From: an uncultured Bacilli bacterium
GTDB lineage: Bacteria; Bacillota_I; Bacilli_A; RFN20; CAG-631
Length of the DNA: 64,000 nt
NCBI GenBank assembly: GCA_947599835.1
Contig: CANQFQ010000006.1
Location: 1-64,000, forward strand
Direction: 5' to 3'
In this document: positions 13,507-52,899 of the stretch, one piece after another
How the letters are laid out: each line of letters starts with the position of its first letter
Position numbering within the stretch: position 1 is the stretch's first letter
Notes under the pieces: model-generated
What the model saw: only the letters and a program-made list of their open reading frames with translations
Told to the model about the DNA's origin: nothing
Databases searched by the model: none
Position numbers and translations under genes: made by a program

Positions 13507-14349
13507 TTATTTTCCTCCTTTTTTATAAATCAAAATAATAAATGAAATTGTCGTTTCAAGTTCATTTAATGCATACAAGTTTTTTATTGCTTCTTTAGAG
13601 GTTTTGTAATAATAAGGGGTCATCATGAATAAATCATGAATCCTTTCTTGGCTTTCTAATTTAATTTTATCTTCAATTTCTATTTTGTCAATGAAAGAAA
13701 AATTAGGAATATCAAGATCTTTCAATTGATTTAAAATAACCTTTTCATATAACACACTTTTTAATTCTAATAAGTGATTTTTTCCGGGTAAAACACGAAT
13801 ATAGATTCCATTTTCTTTTAACACACGACAAAATTCTTTATCAATCATCGGTGCAAAGCAATTTAACATAATATCAAATGATGTATTTAAATAGGGAAGA
13901 AACATTAAATTTCCGATACAGTAATTGATATTTTCTAATTTTAATTGTTTGGCTGTTTTAGAGGCCTCGATAATGGCTCTTTTAGATAAATCAATGCCAT
14001 AAGTGACAAACGAAAAATCTTTAGAAATATTTTGATGAATATAGTTGGTATAATAGCCTTCTCCACATGCAAGGTCGCAAAAGATGGTATAATCCTTTAA
14101 ATTCATTTTAATAATTTCTACAAGTTTTTTGCGTAAAATAGCATAATAATTTTGACTTAAAAAACGTTTCCGAGCCAAAATCATTTCGGGCCTGTCACCA
14201 GGAAAAGAGGAATGGATTTGATTTGCTAATAAAAAATTAGCATATCCATATTTGGAAATGTCATAGGTATGGTGTAGCGAACATTGATATAATTTTTCTT
14301 CTTTAAATAAACTGCTTTGGCAAACTGGACATTTATAAATCGTTTTCAT
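13507..14349 (-). CDS. 23S rRNA (guanine) methyltransferase, RlmA-like
   Basis: A 280-residue SAM-dependent methyltransferase. The N-terminal zinc finger (YKCPVCQSSL ... YQCSLHHTYDISKYGYANFL) and the SAM motif (FCDLACGEGYYTNYI) match the RlmA/RrmA family, which methylates N1 of a guanine in helix 35 of 23S rRNA. Family members differ in target base (745 or 748), which I cannot tell here. It overlaps the VanZ-Ig gene by 4 nt (ATGA), so translation is coupled. Confidence 0.8.
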   Translation of the reverse strand: MKTIYKCPVCQSSLFKEEKLYQCSLHHTYDISKYGYANFLLANQIHSSFPGDRPEMILARKRFLSQNYYAILRKKLVEIIKMNLKDYTIFCDLACGEGYYTNYIHQNISKDFSFVTYGIDLSKRAIIEASKTAKQLKLENINYCIGNLMFLPYLNTSFDIMLNCFAPMIDKEFCRVLKENGIYIRVLPGKNHLLELKSVLYEKVILNQLKDLDIPNFSFIDKIEIEDKIKLESQERIHDLFMMTPYYYKTSKEAIKNLYALNELETTISFIILIYKKGGK

Positions 14350-17270
14350 TTTGCTATTTCCTTTCTTTTGTTTTGTAATCTTTTTTCTTTATGCTTATTT
14401 TTGAAACGCATTTTATAGATAATAAAATGAATCCAATAAATTATCGCTATCATTCCTGTGGCCATCAAAAATCCAAGATAATCAATCATTACATCAGTAA
14501 AAGCTCCTGTTCGTTCTGGAATTGCAGCTTGAATAATTTCTGAAAATAGTGCAATGCAATAACCGATGATGAAATGTAAGATAAGACTAAAATACCATTG
14601 ATCTTTTTTAAAAAATAAGCAATATGTGAATAAAGAAAAAATACTGAATATAAAGAATAAACTGAAATGACCCAAAATTTTTCTTAAATAAAAGGTAAAT
14701 GTAGTAAGATTATTAATTAATGGTTGTTTTTTAATTACAATAGAAAGGGTTATTTTTAAAGGATTTTGGATGCTAAAATGATCCGTATAATATATATAAA
14801 TGTCAGCATTTCCTTTTTTGAGTGGAATGATAACGCCATCAGCCCCCACTTTTAAAACTTTTTCATTGGATGAAACAAAAGTTACTTTTGTATAGGTAGC
14901 CTCTTTTGAAAAATTCACTTGAATCGTTGCTTTTTTGCCATTCAGTAATTCATATTTGTTTTTACCGAGAGATTTGATACTATCGCTAGAAATAAAGTAA
15001 GGTAGTTCTGGATCAAAGGCAAGTCGATTCATAACTTTTAATTCAAACTGCGTCGTCGTTTGATTCCCATAAAGATTAGTTACCGTAATGGTTGTTGTTC
15101 CTTCATGGATTGCATTAATAATTCCGCGAGAATTAATTTTAGCAATTTCATTGTTGGAGGATTGATAGTGAAATAATGCTCTTGAATATGAAAATTGAGA
15201 AACGACACCTAATTGTATTGAATCGGATTTATACATTACAAAATTTTTATCGATAAATTCGGGAATTTCTTTACTTATATTTTGTAAATGCATTTGTTCA
15301 ATGTCGAGATGTACGACTTCAATCATTAAAGAAATACTTACAGTAGTTTTTAAAATTGGCGTTGTAATAGAGGCAGTTATTTGGATATTTCCTTCATTTA
15401 TAGGGAAAAATAAGACGGCGTTTTCACTATCTTTTTCAATCCGCCCTATTGTTTGATCTTGTGTAGGAGTTAAAGACCATTCGATTTGCTTAAAAGTAGC
15501 TTGATTTTCACTAAATAATAGTTCGAATCGATGATAGTGATCCATAGCGGTAGAAATGTTAGAATTTAATGCAGGTATAGGCATTTGCAAAACTTCATCT
15601 TCAATTGCTTTATTGTCATACAAAAGAATTAAATCAGTAGGTAACTTTTCTTGAATTTCAAATTTAAAATCCGCATATGCTCCGCTTTCTATATGGTAAA
15701 CTCTAAAAAAAGCAAATCCTTCTTGATCATTAGCAGTTATTGTATTTAAGATAGGATTGTAGGTTACCATTTCTTCGGTATTAAAGCAAAGATTATCATA
15801 TAGTGATGGATCATATAACGAGGTTGAAACATGACGACTTTGCATAGGAATAAATTCTAAAACATTGTTATTTGGATGAGATAAAGATCCATTTATCGTA
15901 AGAGAAATTTCCACCAAATCACTTAAAGCAATAGTTTGTTGTTTAGTGATTGCGTGGACTTTATTTTCGATGCTGAGCAAAACATTTTCAGTTGTTGTTT
16001 TAGGAATGACATGAACATTTATCATTTTAGTGATTTTATTATCGTATATTACTTTGATAATTGTAGACCCCTCTTGAACTCCTAATACATTTCCTTGCGA
16101 AGTTACACTAGCAACATTTGGATCGCTTGAGATAAATTGAAAAGCATTTACATCTAATTTGGCTTCTTTTGGTACAGGGGTAATTGAAATCAATTTCATT
16201 GAACCGACCACTAAATTTTCAATGCTATTTGGAATGTTGAAATCGATGATATCGGGTAAATTATGAACCACTATTTCGATTGTTGCATAAATGAAAGGAT
16301 TTCTTTCATTGAAAGCCGTAATCGTTGTTTTGCCTGCATTCAATGCTGTGATCTGTCCATCGTCATCAATTGTTGCGACGTTGATATTGCTACTTTCATA
16401 AATAGTTTGCGTAAATGAAACATGGATAGGTTCATATTTGACAAATAATTTTTTTGTTTGTCCAATCCATAAAAAATCAGTTTCTAACGGATAAAATGAT
16501 AGTTTCGTAGGTTCTATTACTTCTTCAAAATCGACAACAACTTTCAAACTAGTTTGAATAGAAGCATCAGCTTTTGATTTTATCGAAAGGGTAATTGGCT
16601 TTAATTGGTTGTATTTTAATGCGGTAAGATAATCATCATTAATGGCAATACAATCGCTATCATATTCATAAGTATAACTTTGATTTGTAGTATTTGTAGG
16701 GAAAAAATTGATTTGGATTGGATAACTATGACCTAAATACACTACATATGTGTTTTTGACCGCATCAAATATAGCATCTTCTAATGTAACTAAAATTTGT
16801 GAAGGAAGAATATCATGAATCGTCATATTTAACTTATCCGTGATATTGTGATTATCCGCACTAATTACTTGAATAGTGGTTGTTCCACTTTTATTAAATG
16901 ATAATAACCCTTTTTCTGAAACAGATGCAATTTCAGGATTTGAACTTGAATAAATTAACGATTGATTCGTTGCATTTTTAGGGTATATTTCTGTGTTTAG
17001 TTGATAAGTGTCCCCCACGCAAAAAGAAATTTCTGAATCTATCGGATTTTGAATCTTAATTTTATTGACAGCAATATATTTGGCTTGATCTTTAGAAAAA
17101 TTATTGATTACTTTACTTAAAGATTGACCTAGAGCATTACTTTGTTGTGCACTATTTTGCCCTTTAATACAAGATTCAATCAAAATCGTTAACGCACAAA
17201 AAACATACATCACTAAGATAAATGATTTCAAAATATTTTTTTTGATTTGTTTTTTTGCTTTTTCTTTCAT
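14346..17270 (-). CDS. VanZ-family membrane protein with inserted Ig-like (Big_2) repeats
   Basis: A 974-residue surface protein. Residues 11-60 look like the first helix and loop of VanZ (hydrophobic helix, then ESCIKGQNSAQQSN). About 800 residues of extracellular Ig-like repeats follow, with the Big_2 hallmark (SSN..IA.V...G.....G.T.I.V) recurring at least five times. From about 862 the VanZ pattern resumes (LRKILGHF, SEIIQ, PERTGAFTDV), with about four helices and a basic tail. VanZ proteins are associated with teicoplanin or lipoglycopeptide resistance; Big_2 domains are adhesion or surface modules. AGAGG precedes ATG 17270 by 7 nt. Confidence 0.8.
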   Translation of the reverse strand: MKEKAKKQIKKNILKSFILVMYVFCALTILIESCIKGQNSAQQSNALGQSLSKVINNFSKDQAKYIAVNKIKIQNPIDSEISFCVGDTYQLNTEIYPKNATNQSLIYSSSNPEIASVSEKGLLSFNKSGTTTIQVISADNHNITDKLNMTIHDILPSQILVTLEDAIFDAVKNTYVVYLGHSYPIQINFFPTNTTNQSYTYEYDSDCIAINDDYLTALKYNQLKPITLSIKSKADASIQTSLKVVVDFEEVIEPTKLSFYPLETDFLWIGQTKKLFVKYEPIHVSFTQTIYESSNINVATIDDDGQITALNAGKTTITAFNERNPFIYATIEIVVHNLPDIIDFNIPNSIENLVVGSMKLISITPVPKEAKLDVNAFQFISSDPNVASVTSQGNVLGVQEGSTIIKVIYDNKITKMINVHVIPKTTTENVLLSIENKVHAITKQQTIALSDLVEISLTINGSLSHPNNNVLEFIPMQSRHVSTSLYDPSLYDNLCFNTEEMVTYNPILNTITANDQEGFAFFRVYHIESGAYADFKFEIQEKLPTDLILLYDNKAIEDEVLQMPIPALNSNISTAMDHYHRFELLFSENQATFKQIEWSLTPTQDQTIGRIEKDSENAVLFFPINEGNIQITASITTPILKTTVSISLMIEVVHLDIEQMHLQNISKEIPEFIDKNFVMYKSDSIQLGVVSQFSYSRALFHYQSSNNEIAKINSRGIINAIHEGTTTITVTNLYGNQTTTQFELKVMNRLAFDPELPYFISSDSIKSLGKNKYELLNGKKATIQVNFSKEATYTKVTFVSSNEKVLKVGADGVIIPLKKGNADIYIYYTDHFSIQNPLKITLSIVIKKQPLINNLTTFTFYLRKILGHFSLFFIFSIFSLFTYCLFFKKDQWYFSLILHFIIGYCIALFSEIIQAAIPERTGAFTDVMIDYLGFLMATGMIAIIYWIHFIIYKMRFKNKHKEKRLQNKRKEIAK

Positions 17271-48133: not shown

Positions 48134-48168
48134 AAAAAAATCCTCCCTCATAAATTTTATGAAAGAGG
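48134..48168 (-). promoter_or_regulatory. SD-sequestering hairpin and sigma-E -10 before spoIVFA
   Basis: CCTCTTTCATAAA pairs with TTTATGAGGGAGG (13 bp, two G-U pairs), followed by seven T and then ATG. The stem contains the ribosome binding site. CATAAAAT, a good sigma-E -10, forms the top of the hairpin, 6 nt before GGGAGGA. No good -35 was found. It also serves as a terminator for the Tad-like operon. Confidence 0.55.
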
Positions 48169-48184
48169 AAATTTAAAAAGAACA

Positions 48185-48331
48185 TTAATCTGTACTTACT
48201 TGAAGCGATGATGTTTCATTTTCAATTCTTTCCCAAGTATTTTTTACCAGTGTTTTATATCCCATCACAATGGCACTAAATACACCTATAACAATTAAAA
48301 TACCTAATAATTGTGCTTTAAATTCTGACAT
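48185..48331 (-). CDS. Flp-like pilin candidate, 48 residues
   Basis: A 48-residue protein with one hydrophobic helix near its N-terminus (QLLGILIVIGVFSAIVM) followed by a short amphipathic tail (KTLVKNTWERIENETSSLQ), the layout and size of Flp major pilins. The usual G/x4-E-Y prepilin cleavage motif is not obvious; the glutamate is at residue 3. ATG 48331 is 6 nt behind GAGGTG, a good site. It is the last gene of the Tad-like operon. Confidence 0.6.
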   Translation of the reverse strand: MSEFKAQLLGILIVIGVFSAIVMGYKTLVKNTWERIENETSSLQVSTD

Positions 48332-48336
48332 TTATT

Positions 48337-48675
48337 TCACCTCTTTTGAAAAATTTCATATTTTTTAGTTATTTTACGATCAAAAGCACCATCAATGAAT
48401 AGTTTTGAATCATAATTTTTTACAAATAAAATTTTATAATGATAGCAATAATCTTGTAGTGTTCTTTCAATGTTAAACTCATCAATGTCATATTGTTCAA
48501 CAAAACTTTTAATTTCACTTTGGGTATAACCATTTTTTTGAATATAATTAACAATATTTAAGGTTTGTGTATTAAAAGTAGTTTCAAATGATTGATAAGC
48601 AAATATATCACTGCAAACCCCTAAAAATATCGATAAAAACAGAAAACTAAGAATTAAACCAATTTGATTAGACAA
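48337..48675 (-). CDS. TadE-like pilus protein
   Basis: A 112-residue protein with one N-terminal helix (QIGLILSFLFLSIFLGVCSDIFAYQ) followed by an extracellular domain. The pattern of helix, then F-A-Y-Q, then a helical continuation (SFETTFNTQTLNIVNYIQ) resembles TadE-family minor pilins. It starts 8 nt inside the end of tadC. The role of minor pseudopilins is to initiate or regulate pilus assembly. Assignment is by pattern and neighbours. Confidence 0.5.
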   Translation of the reverse strand: MSNQIGLILSFLFLSIFLGVCSDIFAYQSFETTFNTQTLNIVNYIQKNGYTQSEIKSFVEQYDIDEFNIERTLQDYCYHYKILFVKNYDSKLFIDGAFDRKITKKYEIFQKR

Positions 48676-49330
48676 GCCCGTTCACCCCAATTGATTGAAA
48701 AATAAATACGGAAAATAAGACGATAGCTAAAGCAGATAAAATAAGTGGAAATAAATAAAATTTTTCTAATGATTTAACCTCTTTTTCAACATATTCATTG
48801 ATTGCTTCGTCTTGAATTTGAAATAATGTATTTCCCATATTTTCTAATAATTGCGCATTTTTGGAATTTTCTTGTGATTGATATAGAATTAATATCATTT
48901 GCTTAATTTGAATGTTTTCAAATTGATTTGAAAATTCAATAAAGGGTTGAATAGAACTATCATTTTCAATATTTTCTATTAATTTTAATACATCATTTTT
49001 GATTGTTTCATCGACAAAATCTATGGTTTCTTTTAATGCATTGTATATAATCACTTTATTTTCAAGTAGATTAATTAAGTTCCGATAAAAACCAAAAAAT
49101 GCAATTTCTTTAGAAGCAATTAAATGATGGTATTTTTTTTCTAATTGAAAAATATGAAATAGAAAAATAGGAATAATAATCAATAAACTAAAAATACCTA
49201 TTTGATAATTTACAAAAAGAATCAATAATAAACTACAGATTCCTACGAGAGCTATTTTTAATATTAACGCTAAAATATTCTTTTTAAAGTCAATCTGTAA
49301 TTTATCACAATAAAGTCGATAGTTATTCAC
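48668..49330 (-). CDS. Type II/IV secretion F-domain membrane protein, TadC-like
   Basis: A 220-residue polytopic protein with about three helices (two near the N-terminus, one at the end, near 190-212). The central cytoplasmic part (FFGFYRNLINLLENKVIIYNALKETIDFV) is a type II secretion F domain. Tad systems use two such platform proteins, TadB and TadC; the preceding gene is the other. It is 3 nt after tadB. Confidence 0.7.
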   Translation of the reverse strand: MNNYRLYCDKLQIDFKKNILALILKIALVGICSLLLILFVNYQIGIFSLLIIIPIFLFHIFQLEKKYHHLIASKEIAFFGFYRNLINLLENKVIIYNALKETIDFVDETIKNDVLKLIENIENDSSIQPFIEFSNQFENIQIKQMILILYQSQENSKNAQLLENMGNTLFQIQDEAINEYVEKEVKSLEKFYLFPLILSALAIVLFSVFIFQSIGVNGLV

Positions 49331-49333
49331 ATT

Positions 49334-50014
49334 CTATAACCCCCTAATTTTATTTTGATAAAAGGTAATCCATAATTTTGCAAATGAGTATAATCCAATG
49401 ATTAGCATTAAGGCTAAACTTAATTTACAGATAGGATTATCGAGCATTTTTTCAAAATATTGTCCTAATCCTATTTTTAAAAACACGAGAACAAATATCC
49501 ATAGAAAATAGAGAACAAATAACTCAAATAATTTAACCTTTTTTTTCTTTTTTAGTTGCAAATAATGAACTTTTGTTTTTTGACATAGATCCGAAGGTGC
49601 CTTTGTTAATTTATAAAAATCTCCTCCATTATTTGTATAAAGCGTTAATGTATTAGCATATAGTTGAAAACCTATCAATGGGAAATTATTTGCGATATCT
49701 TCTACTTGTGTTGTAAATTCATCGCCGCTTAATCCCTGAAATTCATTTGAAAGATAGGCTTCTATGGCTTGATATCCTTCATAAACGTTTGGTGTAGAAA
49801 GCATTTGTACATTCATAAAATTAGTAAATTCATAAATTATCTCAATTTGATGATAAAAATTTTTATCTATTTTCTTATTTTTTAATACCCAAAATGTCAT
49901 TGAACCAGCAAATAAACTAATTAGTAATGCTAGGATCCAATCGTTAATAATGTAAAAACTTAGTAAGAAAGTTAAAGGAACGCTTAAAAAATATATTCCA
50001 TCTTTTTTATTCAT
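49334..50014 (-). CDS. Type II/IV secretion F-domain membrane protein, TadB-like
   Basis: A 226-residue protein with helices near 7-25, 28-47, 166-185 and 198-216. The middle (EFTNFMNVQMLSTPNVYEGYQAIEAYL) is a T2SF cytoplasmic domain. It probably forms the inner-membrane platform with the TadC-like protein and the CpaF ATPase. It overlaps cpaF by 8 nt. Confidence 0.7.
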   Translation of the reverse strand: MNKKDGIYFLSVPLTFLLSFYIINDWILALLISLFAGSMTFWVLKNKKIDKNFYHQIEIIYEFTNFMNVQMLSTPNVYEGYQAIEAYLSNEFQGLSGDEFTTQVEDIANNFPLIGFQLYANTLTLYTNNGGDFYKLTKAPSDLCQKTKVHYLQLKKKKKVKLFELFVLYFLWIFVLVFLKIGLGQYFEKMLDNPICKLSLALMLIIGLYSFAKLWITFYQNKIRGL

Positions 50015-51116
50015 TTTGTTCCTCCTTTATAAATTGAGAAATATCATTAAAATATTCTTTATTAAATTTTAATTTTTCAAATAAAAATGGACTCATTGTA
50101 CCATAGATTGCATCGTTATTATTTTTTATTTGATATAAAAAATTACAATTGTATCCATCTGTAGATGGGACATATTCGATAACTTCACTTATAAAACGAA
50201 TGATTTTATTGTTCTCAAAACGTTTTTCAATATGCAAACCAATTTTTAAGTTTTTTGCAATATCTTGTAACATATTTTGTTCGGTAAAATCAATATTTTT
50301 TTGAAATAATTTAATTAATCTATGCAAACTATTTTTTGCAGAATCACTATGTATTGTAGTTATCATAGGATGCCCTGTTGCAATCGATTGTACCAATTCA
50401 AACGCTTCATTGCCACGAGTTTCTGCGACGATAATCCAATCTGGATTATTTCTTAAAGAAGCTTTAATTAAATCATTTAAATTCTCAGTTTGATGACTAA
50501 TAATCCATGATGTAATATCGCGGTGGGGATATAATTCTTTTAAATAGGTTTCATAACTATCTTCAATAATGATTATACGATCATTTACATTCATTTTTGA
50601 AACTAAATATTTTTGTAATTCTGTTTTTCCACTACCGGTAATACCGCTAATAATTATGGATTGGTAATTTAATAATAATACTTTTAACAAATTATGGACT
50701 GCTTGTGGACAAAGTGTAGGATCATTTTCTTTAATTTTTAATATGGGTGCGATTTTTCTTAATGAAAATGTTACAACTTTTTCATTTTTACTACGTGCGA
50801 GTGACGGATGCATGGCATTTAGTCGATAATTACCAAATGAAACATCAAGTATGGGATTTTGCACCGAAAATGGTTGTAGGGAATAATTAGCAATCTGCTT
50901 GATCATTGAAAGAACTTCTTCATTATCCATTTCAATATTTAATTTAAATCTTCCAATTTCATTATCTTGGGCATAGAAATGATTGCCGTTATATTGAATA
51001 TCTGTTAAGGTATCGCTAAAATAATCTTTTAAAAAAGATGACTCTATGATTTCAACACATTTTTCAATATTTGCTTGTACAATGCCATTATTTTTAAACT
51101 CTTTCTTTAAGTTCAT
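50007..51116 (-). CDS. CpaF/TadA-type secretion ATPase
   Basis: A 369-residue type II/IV secretion ATPase. Walker A is GITGSGKT (158-165); the Asp box is IIIIEDSYET; the Walker B region is DWIIVAETRGNEAFE; and the His box follows (TGHPMITTIHS). It powers pilus assembly or secretion from the cytoplasmic side. It starts 23 nt inside the preceding minor-pilin gene. CpaF is the most reliable marker that this locus is a Tad-like machine. Confidence 0.9.
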   Translation of the reverse strand: MNLKKEFKNNGIVQANIEKCVEIIESSFLKDYFSDTLTDIQYNGNHFYAQDNEIGRFKLNIEMDNEEVLSMIKQIANYSLQPFSVQNPILDVSFGNYRLNAMHPSLARSKNEKVVTFSLRKIAPILKIKENDPTLCPQAVHNLLKVLLLNYQSIIISGITGSGKTELQKYLVSKMNVNDRIIIIEDSYETYLKELYPHRDITSWIISHQTENLNDLIKASLRNNPDWIIVAETRGNEAFELVQSIATGHPMITTIHSDSAKNSLHRLIKLFQKNIDFTEQNMLQDIAKNLKIGLHIEKRFENNKIIRFISEVIEYVPSTDGYNCNFLYQIKNNNDAIYGTMSPFLFEKLKFNKEYFNDISQFIKEEQNE

Positions 51117-51495
51117 ATCTCAAAATCCTTTCTTGTTCAAAATCCATGTATGTAATCATAATTTTAATTTGTACACTATTACAAGAGACGGGATATATCG
51201 AACAATTTCTTAATGTTTTTGCATCATAAAAATAGTAATAAAATTGAAAATCAAATTGTGGAAACGAATTTGTTAGTGTAGAACTTACATATGTTTTTAG
51301 TAAATCTTTATCGATTTCTATTGCTGAAAATCCTAATTCTCCAGCTTCAAGAACACTATCTAAATTTAGGCAATTATAAATCATTGACGTATCAATTAAA
51401 TAAGTAGCACTATTCATTTTATTTAAATGATTACCATTTAAAAAGATTTGCATGCATCCTAGCCATGCTAAAATTAAATAATAACAATTATGCAT
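51094..51495 (-). CDS. Pseudopilin-like protein of the Tad-like operon
   Basis: A 133-residue protein with a short N-terminal hydrophobic segment (YYLILAWLGCMQIFL) followed by a mixed external domain with four cysteines, two of them (CSIYPVSC) close enough to form a disulfide. The form suits a TadE/TadF-type minor pilin, but no family was recognised. Its ATG overlaps the stop of the 346-residue gene by one base, and its 3' end overlaps cpaF. Confidence 0.5.
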   Translation of the reverse strand: MHNCYYLILAWLGCMQIFLNGNHLNKMNSATYLIDTSMIYNCLNLDSVLEAGELGFSAIEIDKDLLKTYVSSTLTNSFPQFDFQFYYYFYDAKTLRNCSIYPVSCNSVQIKIMITYMDFEQERILRYELKERV

Positions 51496-52535
51496 TATTG
51501 TTCATACACTACATCTAATAAAGGACTATCGATGGATTGGTAGTAAAATTTAGAACCCGTGGGCCCAATAATATTTCGATAAATAGAGAATTCACCATAA
51601 ATATAAAAAGTGTTTTTTAACATTCCAATTTTTGAAAAAATAATACAATATCGAATAGGATTTACTAATAATGTAGCGTTAAATGGAATAAAAAATGGAT
51701 GCATTACATTTCCGCATTGATTATTTTTAGTTTCATAGATGGTTCCTGTATATTTATCTTGATAAAATCGATTCTCATTTGCAATATAAAACCAATTTCC
51801 TTTCCGTTGAACGGGTAATTCAATGTCGACAGAATGACTTGTTGGTCCAATTAAATCCGTATCAGGAAATACGGTATCGTATAATCTTAAGGTTGCAACT
51901 GAAATATCATCAAGATTATAGGCTTCTGAAGTTTTAATGAAAAGGGATAAATTAGAAAATGTGATGTAGCGATTATAATCATTCATAATGGGCTTAATGG
52001 ATGTCGTTGTAACATATTCATAATCATAATTTACCGTTGCTTCAGAAAGTTTATATGCCATTTTAAAATATGAAACTACTGGTGCTTTAAATTGATAGGT
52101 GTTGGTATTTATTGCATTATTTGAGTAACCGACTCTCATGCAACTACTAATCATAATATCGTTCGAAGTCAACACTAATTCAAGCCATTTTATTTTAATT
52201 AAAATTTTTTTGGTAGAATTCCAACTCGTAAAATTTTGATTATAAAACAAGGTATATTTACCAGTTTCTAATTCTTTTCCATTGACTATATTTGTTTGCA
52301 TGAGAGTATTCCCCTCATAAATTTCAAAGGTATAATTCAATAAATGACTTGCGTTCGTAATCGAGTCGAATGAAATTTTTATAGGTTCATAGACTTCAGT
52401 TACAGGAATAGATCCTTGTGCTGAAATAATTGGAAAAGGCAAAGATGAAGCAAGCTTTAAAGGTTTTCTTAGTGTATTAGGAACACTAGGTGAAATAAAA
52501 ATTACGTTTAACCAAATGAAAAATTTAAATAACAT
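51495..52535 (-). CDS. Unrecognised exported protein of the Tad-like operon
   Basis: A 346-residue protein that begins with a hydrophobic N-terminal segment (LFKFFIWLNVIFIS), probably a signal or anchor. The rest is beta-rich with many Thr, Asn and Tyr residues (for example TVNYDYEYVTTTSIKP) and no lipobox or LPxTG. I recognise no family. In this position it may be a tip adhesin or secreted substrate of the Tad-like machine. It overlaps the 124-residue gene by 11 nt and the next gene by one. Confidence 0.6.
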   Translation of the reverse strand: MLFKFFIWLNVIFISPSVPNTLRKPLKLASSLPFPIISAQGSIPVTEVYEPIKISFDSITNASHLLNYTFEIYEGNTLMQTNIVNGKELETGKYTLFYNQNFTSWNSTKKILIKIKWLELVLTSNDIMISSCMRVGYSNNAINTNTYQFKAPVVSYFKMAYKLSEATVNYDYEYVTTTSIKPIMNDYNRYITFSNLSLFIKTSEAYNLDDISVATLRLYDTVFPDTDLIGPTSHSVDIELPVQRKGNWFYIANENRFYQDKYTGTIYETKNNQCGNVMHPFFIPFNATLLVNPIRYCIIFSKIGMLKNTFYIYGEFSIYRNIIGPTGSKFYYQSIDSPLLDVVYEQ

Positions 52536-52899
52536 AGGTTAAAAAAATCGTCATTGCTTTTTTCTTTAAACGATAAAAAGTACTTTTAGAATAAATTCCA
52601 TACCACCATTTTGAATCCGCATTTGTAAAGAATTCGTTTTGTAAAATACGATTGTATTCATAATCAATCATATTTAAAATGTTGTCAATGTAGGTTACAT
52701 AATTTTCACAATAGCTGATATTGATTTGGTTTTGTAGATCTACCATGCTGTAGATGGTTTCTTGTTCTTTAATCATATCAGTTAAGATTGAATGATTCGC
52801 TAATAAAGTTTTAACTCTTAAATACTCATTACCGAATTGTTTTAAACTTGCACATTGAACTTTAAACGAACTTTTTAAAATAGAATCATCAAATATCAT
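52525..52899 (-). CDS. Unrecognised protein with a possible C-terminal helix-turn-helix
   Basis: A 124-residue, mostly helical protein. The end (WWYGIYSKSTFYRLKKKAMTIFL) resembles the recognition helix of sigma-like or ArpU-type phage regulators, where S-x-S-T-x-Y-R-L-K-K is common. That similarity is short and uncertain. It may be the regulator of the Tad-like operon, of which it is the first gene. ATG 52899 lies 7 nt behind AGGAGG. Confidence 0.5.
   Translation of the reverse strand: MIFDDSILKSSFKVQCASLKQFGNEYLRVKTLLANHSILTDMIKEQETIYSMVDLQNQINISYCENYVTYIDNILNMIDYEYNRILQNEFFTNADSKWWYGIYSKSTFYRLKKKAMTIFLTYVI

Follow-up and report, generated by a model that had tools for sequence, protein, structure and literature searches.

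A compact Tad-like operon without a prepilin peptidase in an uncultured order of Bacilli

Can a type IV filament be built from subunits that never meet a prepilin peptidase? The question is raised by eight minus-strand open reading frames (ORFs) at positions 48185-52899 of the 64,000-nucleotide stretch (the window) that begins contig CANQFQ010000006.1 of an uncultured Bacilli bacterium (GenBank assembly GCA_947599835.1). An initial annotation, made from the letters of the window, had proposed a compact operon for a Tad-like pilus or secretion system, lacking the peptidase gene tadV, and this proposal is supported by the analysis reported here, in which the Peptidase_A24 family proved to be missing genome-wide too. 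The encoded machine is very probably Tad-like, and it probably runs without a prepilin peptidase. Taken as a whole, the operon is in our judgement best explained, with moderate confidence, as encoding, on the chromosome, a Tad-like adhesion pilus that needs no prepilin peptidase and displays the exported protein B; that B is an adhesin we regard as an even call.

Operon layout and conservation

All eight ORFs were found tightly packed, as first described, with overlaps or gaps of a few base pairs between neighbours; they are lettered A (124 residues) to H (48 residues) in transcription order. The start of gene A (52525..52899) is most likely the ATG at 52899, which has a properly spaced AGGAGG and gives the 124-residue product.

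Gene D (50007..51116, 369 residues) encodes a CpaF/VirB11-type assembly ATPase. It matches Pfam T2SSE at 1.4e-27, and its leading matches in the PDB include CpaF (3e-17), FlaI and VirB11, confirming what the initial annotation had considered a solid assignment. Among NCBIfam models VirB11, TrbB, archaellum FlaI and TadA rank over PilT, ComGA, GspE and PilB, with none reaching its cut-off, and D is not of the ComGA/GspE type. The locus does not qualify as a ComG competence system: D scores 63.7 bits against a ComGA cut-off of 300 bits, and there is no ComC-type peptidase. D is the sole T2SSE ATPase over cut-off in the window's genome.

Genes E (49334..50014, 226 residues) and F (48668..49330, 220 residues) encode membrane platform proteins in the TadB and TadC positions, respectively. 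Both had been called F-domain proteins, which holds for F, recognisable as T2SSF through its orthologs only (5 of 27, best 6.6e-5), but not for E, which matched no Pfam T2SSF model either alone or through orthologs. The assignment of E is based on profile comparison with TadB-position proteins, those of conjugative plasmids being matched at an hhalign probability of 93. The operon thus has both a CpaF/TadA-type ATPase and a TadB plus TadC platform pair.

ATPase D was found in 200 of 279 genomes of an uncultured order of Bacilli, the hosts of the operon being small-genome, gut-type bacteria. We compared 46 neighbourhoods, including the window and a few duplicate records. Almost all of them retain the order A-B-C-D-E-F-G-H. 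A is present in 37, B (judged by position) in 41, C in 44, E and F in 45 each, G in 43 and H in 42; several of the losses are contig ends, and nearly closed genomes (L153-L156) carry the whole operon. That arrangement was seen in about 44 further loci, spread over many genera, far more than chance would produce. In a tree of D the order forms one clade (95/98), apart from CpaB-type cassettes (97/90) and from PilB.

Genes A and B, which the initial annotation could not recognise, belong to the system, since both recur in most of the conserved neighbourhoods. A is regulator-like, with a C-terminal MG284/MPN403 domain (NCBIfam NF045770, 71 bits) and the look of an ArpU/sigma-region-4-like helix-turn-helix, and some of its orthologs have weak matches to SigG and to phage regulators of the ArpU/RinA kind; it may be a small regulator of the operon. 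The MG284/MPN403 domain, named for Mycoplasma proteins, sits in the first gene in most loci. We know of no such pili made by Mycoplasma, and a search for papers on MG284/MPN403, within one literature collection, found nothing relevant. B (51495..52535, 346 residues), at the adhesin position, has a signal-like N-terminal helix and an all-beta AlphaFold model with a mean predicted local distance difference test (pLDDT) score of 63, a moderate confidence for which we set its Foldseek list aside. It is the fastest-diverging gene of the operon (42% identity to a sister genome, compared with 86% for D), which is consistent with a surface-exposed protein.

Pilin-like proteins and the missing prepilin peptidase

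The window's genome, which is 93% complete, has no match to Peptidase_A24 (PF01478) even at E <= 10, so that the absence of TadV first noted at the locus extends to the genome. Across the order this family occurs in 13 of 279 genomes, 10 of which carry the operon, and it is absent in about 95% of carriers. One of these ten matches (genome G147), weak and lying within a ribose-phosphate pyrophosphokinase-like gene region, was discarded. All nine of the others have a second, PilB-type ATPase (frames of 565-602 residues) no more than about 10 kilobases from the peptidase gene, and three such loci, read fully, encode a classical pilus with a PilC-type platform and KGFTLIELV-type prepilins. These nine genomes therefore share type IV filament machinery with the operon in the same hosts, but theirs is unrelated to it and consists of a PilB-type ATPase, PilC, PilD and KGFTLIELV-type prepilins. 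D is the sole T2SSE ATPase in 36 of 37 other carriers examined. In genome G273, a metagenome-assembled genome of about 150 contigs, we observed a second T2SSE ATPase (L147:1258-2328, 356 residues) with a PilT/ComGA-like start and no Peptidase_A24 match.

Near-complete carriers gave the same picture at E <= 10: 33 of 40 have no Peptidase_A24, and the other 7 comprise 3 with a separate classical pilus and 4 with weak or spurious matches. The archaeal-type family Arc_PepC_II (PF06847) gave no match over cut-off. These searches gave no sign of a hidden prepilin peptidase, neither PF01478 at E <= 10 nor PF06847 having yielded anything convincing in near-complete carriers. In a recent review the prepilin peptidase is one of the components proposed as ancestral in type IV filaments, and prepilins are said to need processing before they are assembled (PMC10191384). 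Of the pilin, ATPase, platform and peptidase that together define the superfamily, the operon has the second and third, lacks the fourth, and has candidates for the first.

These candidates are C (51094..51495, 133 residues), G (48337..48675, 112 residues) and H (48185..48331, 48 residues). None of them matched TadE, Flp or any other informative family in Pfam or NCBIfam, so the labels TadE-like and Flp-like lack family support and reflect size, position and topology. C and G are like TadE/TadF pseudopilins in size and topology but have no family match to them. The AlphaFold model of C (pLDDT 91.5) has a hydrophobic N-terminal helix at residues 2-31 and a small alpha/beta head with strands at 82-128, with no leader. 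H, the candidate main filament subunit, starts MSEFKAQLLG in the window, and in 36 of 36 non-duplicate loci it starts with the pattern M[S/G/A]E[I/F/L/V][K/N][G/A], each time behind a strong Shine-Dalgarno sequence. E3, L9, G10 and F18 are invariant in its alignment. Position 2 is Ser, Gly or Ala in all 36 loci, compared with 15% among 215 other genes of those loci, although the 36 are mutually related and hence not independent events. The usual removal of the first Met would then expose Ser, Gly or Ala followed by Glu. G, likewise leaderless and pilin-like, has a small residue (S/G/A) at position 2 in most loci, its start having been picked with that pattern in mind. H lacks the classical type III leader with E5 and Y6 by which the Flp pilin of a Tad system is recognised. 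Subunits made without a classical cleavable leader would need no prepilin peptidase, and in this the proposed filament would differ from known type IV filaments.

The main rival to this reading, which we consider unlikely though the strongest of the alternatives, is an ordinary Tad-like pilus whose six-residue leader (MSEFKA, cut before Q) is removed by a peptidase that is too diverged to be found or belongs to another family. In its favour, the K[G/A]Q stretch of H is almost invariant and looks like a short type III signal, and the Flp-position proteins of class-level relatives (family f17) begin MKEATG followed by E, with the same possible leader length. Moreover, Peptidase_A24 occurs in 18 of 20 class-level genomes, most of them with CpaB-type Tad cassettes, although there it may serve another pilus. 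The searches of near-complete carriers with both peptidase families argue against such cleavage, as do the C model, which is wholly without a leader, the variability of G at residue 6, and the lack in H of a Glu at +5 after such a cut.

Relatives on conjugative plasmids and in Tad cassettes

The closest relatives outside the order are Tad-like modules of conjugative plasmids. The best plasmid matches of D are Listeria and Brochothrix proteins annotated as 'CpaF/VirB11'. On pLIS40 (Listeria) the genes run thioester-domain protein, 63-residue protein, C, ATPase, E, F, G; on pL21564-1 (Brochothrix), isopeptide-forming fimbrial protein, four ORFs of about 50 residues, C, ATPase, E, F, G and a 48-residue protein; and on pLS20, thioester adhesin, two small ORFs, C, tadA, E, F, G and a 47-residue protein. 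The operon in the window has the same make-up, in the same gene order: an exported surface protein, then C, a CpaF/VirB11 ATPase, two platform proteins, G and a hydrophobic protein of about 50 residues. In profile comparison with the plasmid proteins F reaches an hhalign probability of 95, as does G (against pLS20, pLIS40 and pL21564-1). D matches the ATPases of the plasmid modules at about 1e-80 or better. C is more weakly similar to the plasmid modules (9e-6 to 1e-3), and is homologous to the C-position proteins of conjugative elements (L011 1e-19, L121 1e-5, pLIS40 9e-6). B is matched to the plasmid adhesins by position only.

The plasmid modules differ from the operon insofar as they are embedded in conjugation operons, with VirD4, relaxase and type IV secretion system genes alongside, have larger adhesins with thioester or isopeptide domains, and have no gene A. 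No VirB4, VirD4 or relaxase gene is near the operon, the neighbours in the window being spoIVF-rplU-obg and other housekeeping-type genes. Element L121 encodes a 1224-residue protein with a weak thioester-domain match, followed by C-G-D-E-F and TrbL/TraG-like genes. In another conjugative element (L011:2408-14366, on a contig labelled Bacillus subtilis DE0224) the module is rearranged as C, G, VirD4-like, F, D, E, H-like and is followed by exported proteins of 196 and 941 residues. On pL21564-1 (L158:12476-13204) the ORFs that separate the C-like gene from that of the fimbrial protein are near-identical tandem hydrophobic ORFs of about 50 residues (MLDQNTDRSWWMIGAV...; four annotated, three read), which resemble the 47-residue protein of pLS20 and, judged by sequence, look like an amplified pilin.

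The pLS20 adhesin p34 is required for efficient conjugation, and the pLIS40 adhesin WP_012952147.1 is listed as its homolog (PMC8092201). Gram-positive conjugation systems seem to have no pili (PMC8092201, PMC11730352), and a text search for the word Tad in these two papers returned nothing.

With the classical Tad (type IVc) pilus the operon shares a CpaF-type ATPase, a TadB/TadC pair and a very small main subunit. Unlike that pilus, it lacks TadV, CpaB/RcpC at the locus, an Flp with E5 and Y6 and any match to TadE, and it has in addition an exported B and a regulator-like A. No CpaB/RcpC (SAF) match was found among the eight genes, whereas the compact Tad cassettes of related Bacilli (families f17 and f25) do match; TadZ is not among the eight either, no genome-wide search for TadZ having been made. 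The f17 and f25 cassettes share the order ATPase, platform, platform, protein of about 50 residues, protein of about 110 residues, but also encode one CpaB/SAF and one DUF5411-like protein, in a group with Peptidase_A24 in 18 of 20 genomes. The tad operon of Bulleidia (Erysipelotrichales) begins with tadV (PMC12786226).

Predicted filament and competing functions

Based on these comparisons, we propose that a single-membrane cell would build a minimal Tad-like (type IVc-like) filament, with D powering assembly on the E/F platform, H as the main subunit, and C and G as minor, tip or priming subunits. B would be exported by Sec and would act as an adhesin, or be displayed as such by the filament. 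The module appears to be the chromosomal counterpart of the Tad-like module beside the pLS20-family mating adhesin, which points to attachment to cells or surfaces rather than to sporulation; such attachment is the most likely job of the operon. Several points weigh against this proposal. The filament itself is a prediction from the genes. No known family is matched by C, G, H or B, neither the C model nor the B model has a significant match to solved structures, and neither a thioester domain nor any other recognised adhesin domain is present in B. The similarity of H to the plasmid proteins is marginal (pL21564-1, 0.011), except for element L011 (2e-5), and in the tree of D the plasmid group is nearest to the clade of the order at a weak 82/70. 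Finally, H might have a short leader in its K[G/A]Q stretch, with an unrecognised peptidase cutting behind residue 6.

The same genes could instead encode a short pseudopilus or a secretion or translocation device; in that case B, or a different protein, would be exported by a membrane-bound piston made of C, G and H. The co-occurrence of B, with its signal-like N-terminus, in nearly every locus would suit such a device, as would the very small subunits and the lack of a separate retraction ATPase. We judge it rather improbable, as B has a Sec-type N-terminus of its own and the relatives of the module adjoin surface adhesins, not secreted enzymes. Beyond the operon, the window encodes a 974-residue protein (14346-17270, minus strand) that combines Big_2 Ig-like repeats with a VanZ-like domain at its C-terminus, possibly a large surface protein.

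Less probable again is a DNA-uptake pilus that replaces ComG in natural transformation, a role mentioned in the initial annotation. All four genomes of the window's family have ComEC, and Flp pili are reported to serve transformation in an actinobacterium (PMC4322843). However, operon and ComEC show no association in the main family (119/192 vs 19/32, Fisher p = 0.85), leaving the suggestion without support, and ComEC persists in families that have no operon.

The initial annotation also placed the operon beside spoIVF and suggested a role during sporulation. The adjacency is real in the window's own family, the only one in which spoIVFA/spoIVFB lie 3' of H, and does not extend to the rest of the order; in family f4, a large one, a divergent guanylate-kinase-like gene usually precedes the operon and a small acyl-carrier-protein-like gene often follows it. 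Between H and spoIVFA is a terminator-like hairpin (48141..48169, minus strand) with a 13 bp stem and then a T run (-19.1 kcal/mol for the stretch, z -3.8), and similar hairpins with changed stem letters are present in two relatives, L042 and L043. The 3' arm of the window's hairpin holds the ribosome binding site of spoIVFA, and the hairpin could have two effects, termination of the pilus transcript and masking of the spoIVFA start in any RNA that reads through. SpoIVA was found in 30 of 279 genomes (2 of them weak), about 7 of them among the 200 operon carriers as against 21 genomes without the operon. Because spoIVF adjacency is limited to one family, a terminator hairpin intervenes and most carriers have no SpoIVA, the sporulation link is unsupported. 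A second sporulation neighbour, the spore coat gene cotJB (L045:12880-13263), lies just upstream of the operon in genome G273 of family f6. Membership in the SpoIIIA channel was rejected, given that there are two platform proteins and SpoIIIAA is not among the 25 NCBIfam matches listed for D; SpoIIIAC-AH had no match among the window's own genes. A SpoIIIA-like or engulfment-linked apparatus co-regulated with spoIVF, for which the spoIVF and cotJB neighbours and the SpoIVA-positive genome of the window could be cited, is thus already largely refuted and very improbable.

For the adhesion pilus that we favour, the retention of ATPase and platform in about 200 genomes of a lineage that has dropped the peptidase makes the need for leader cleavage directly testable. 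It is conceivable, though we put it at somewhat below even, that type IV filaments are assembled throughout a bacterial order from leaderless pilins which no prepilin peptidase ever encounters, and that conjugative plasmids of the pLS20 type encode an unrecognised adhesion pilus of the same peptidase-free design, although conjugation in their hosts is said to proceed without pili.

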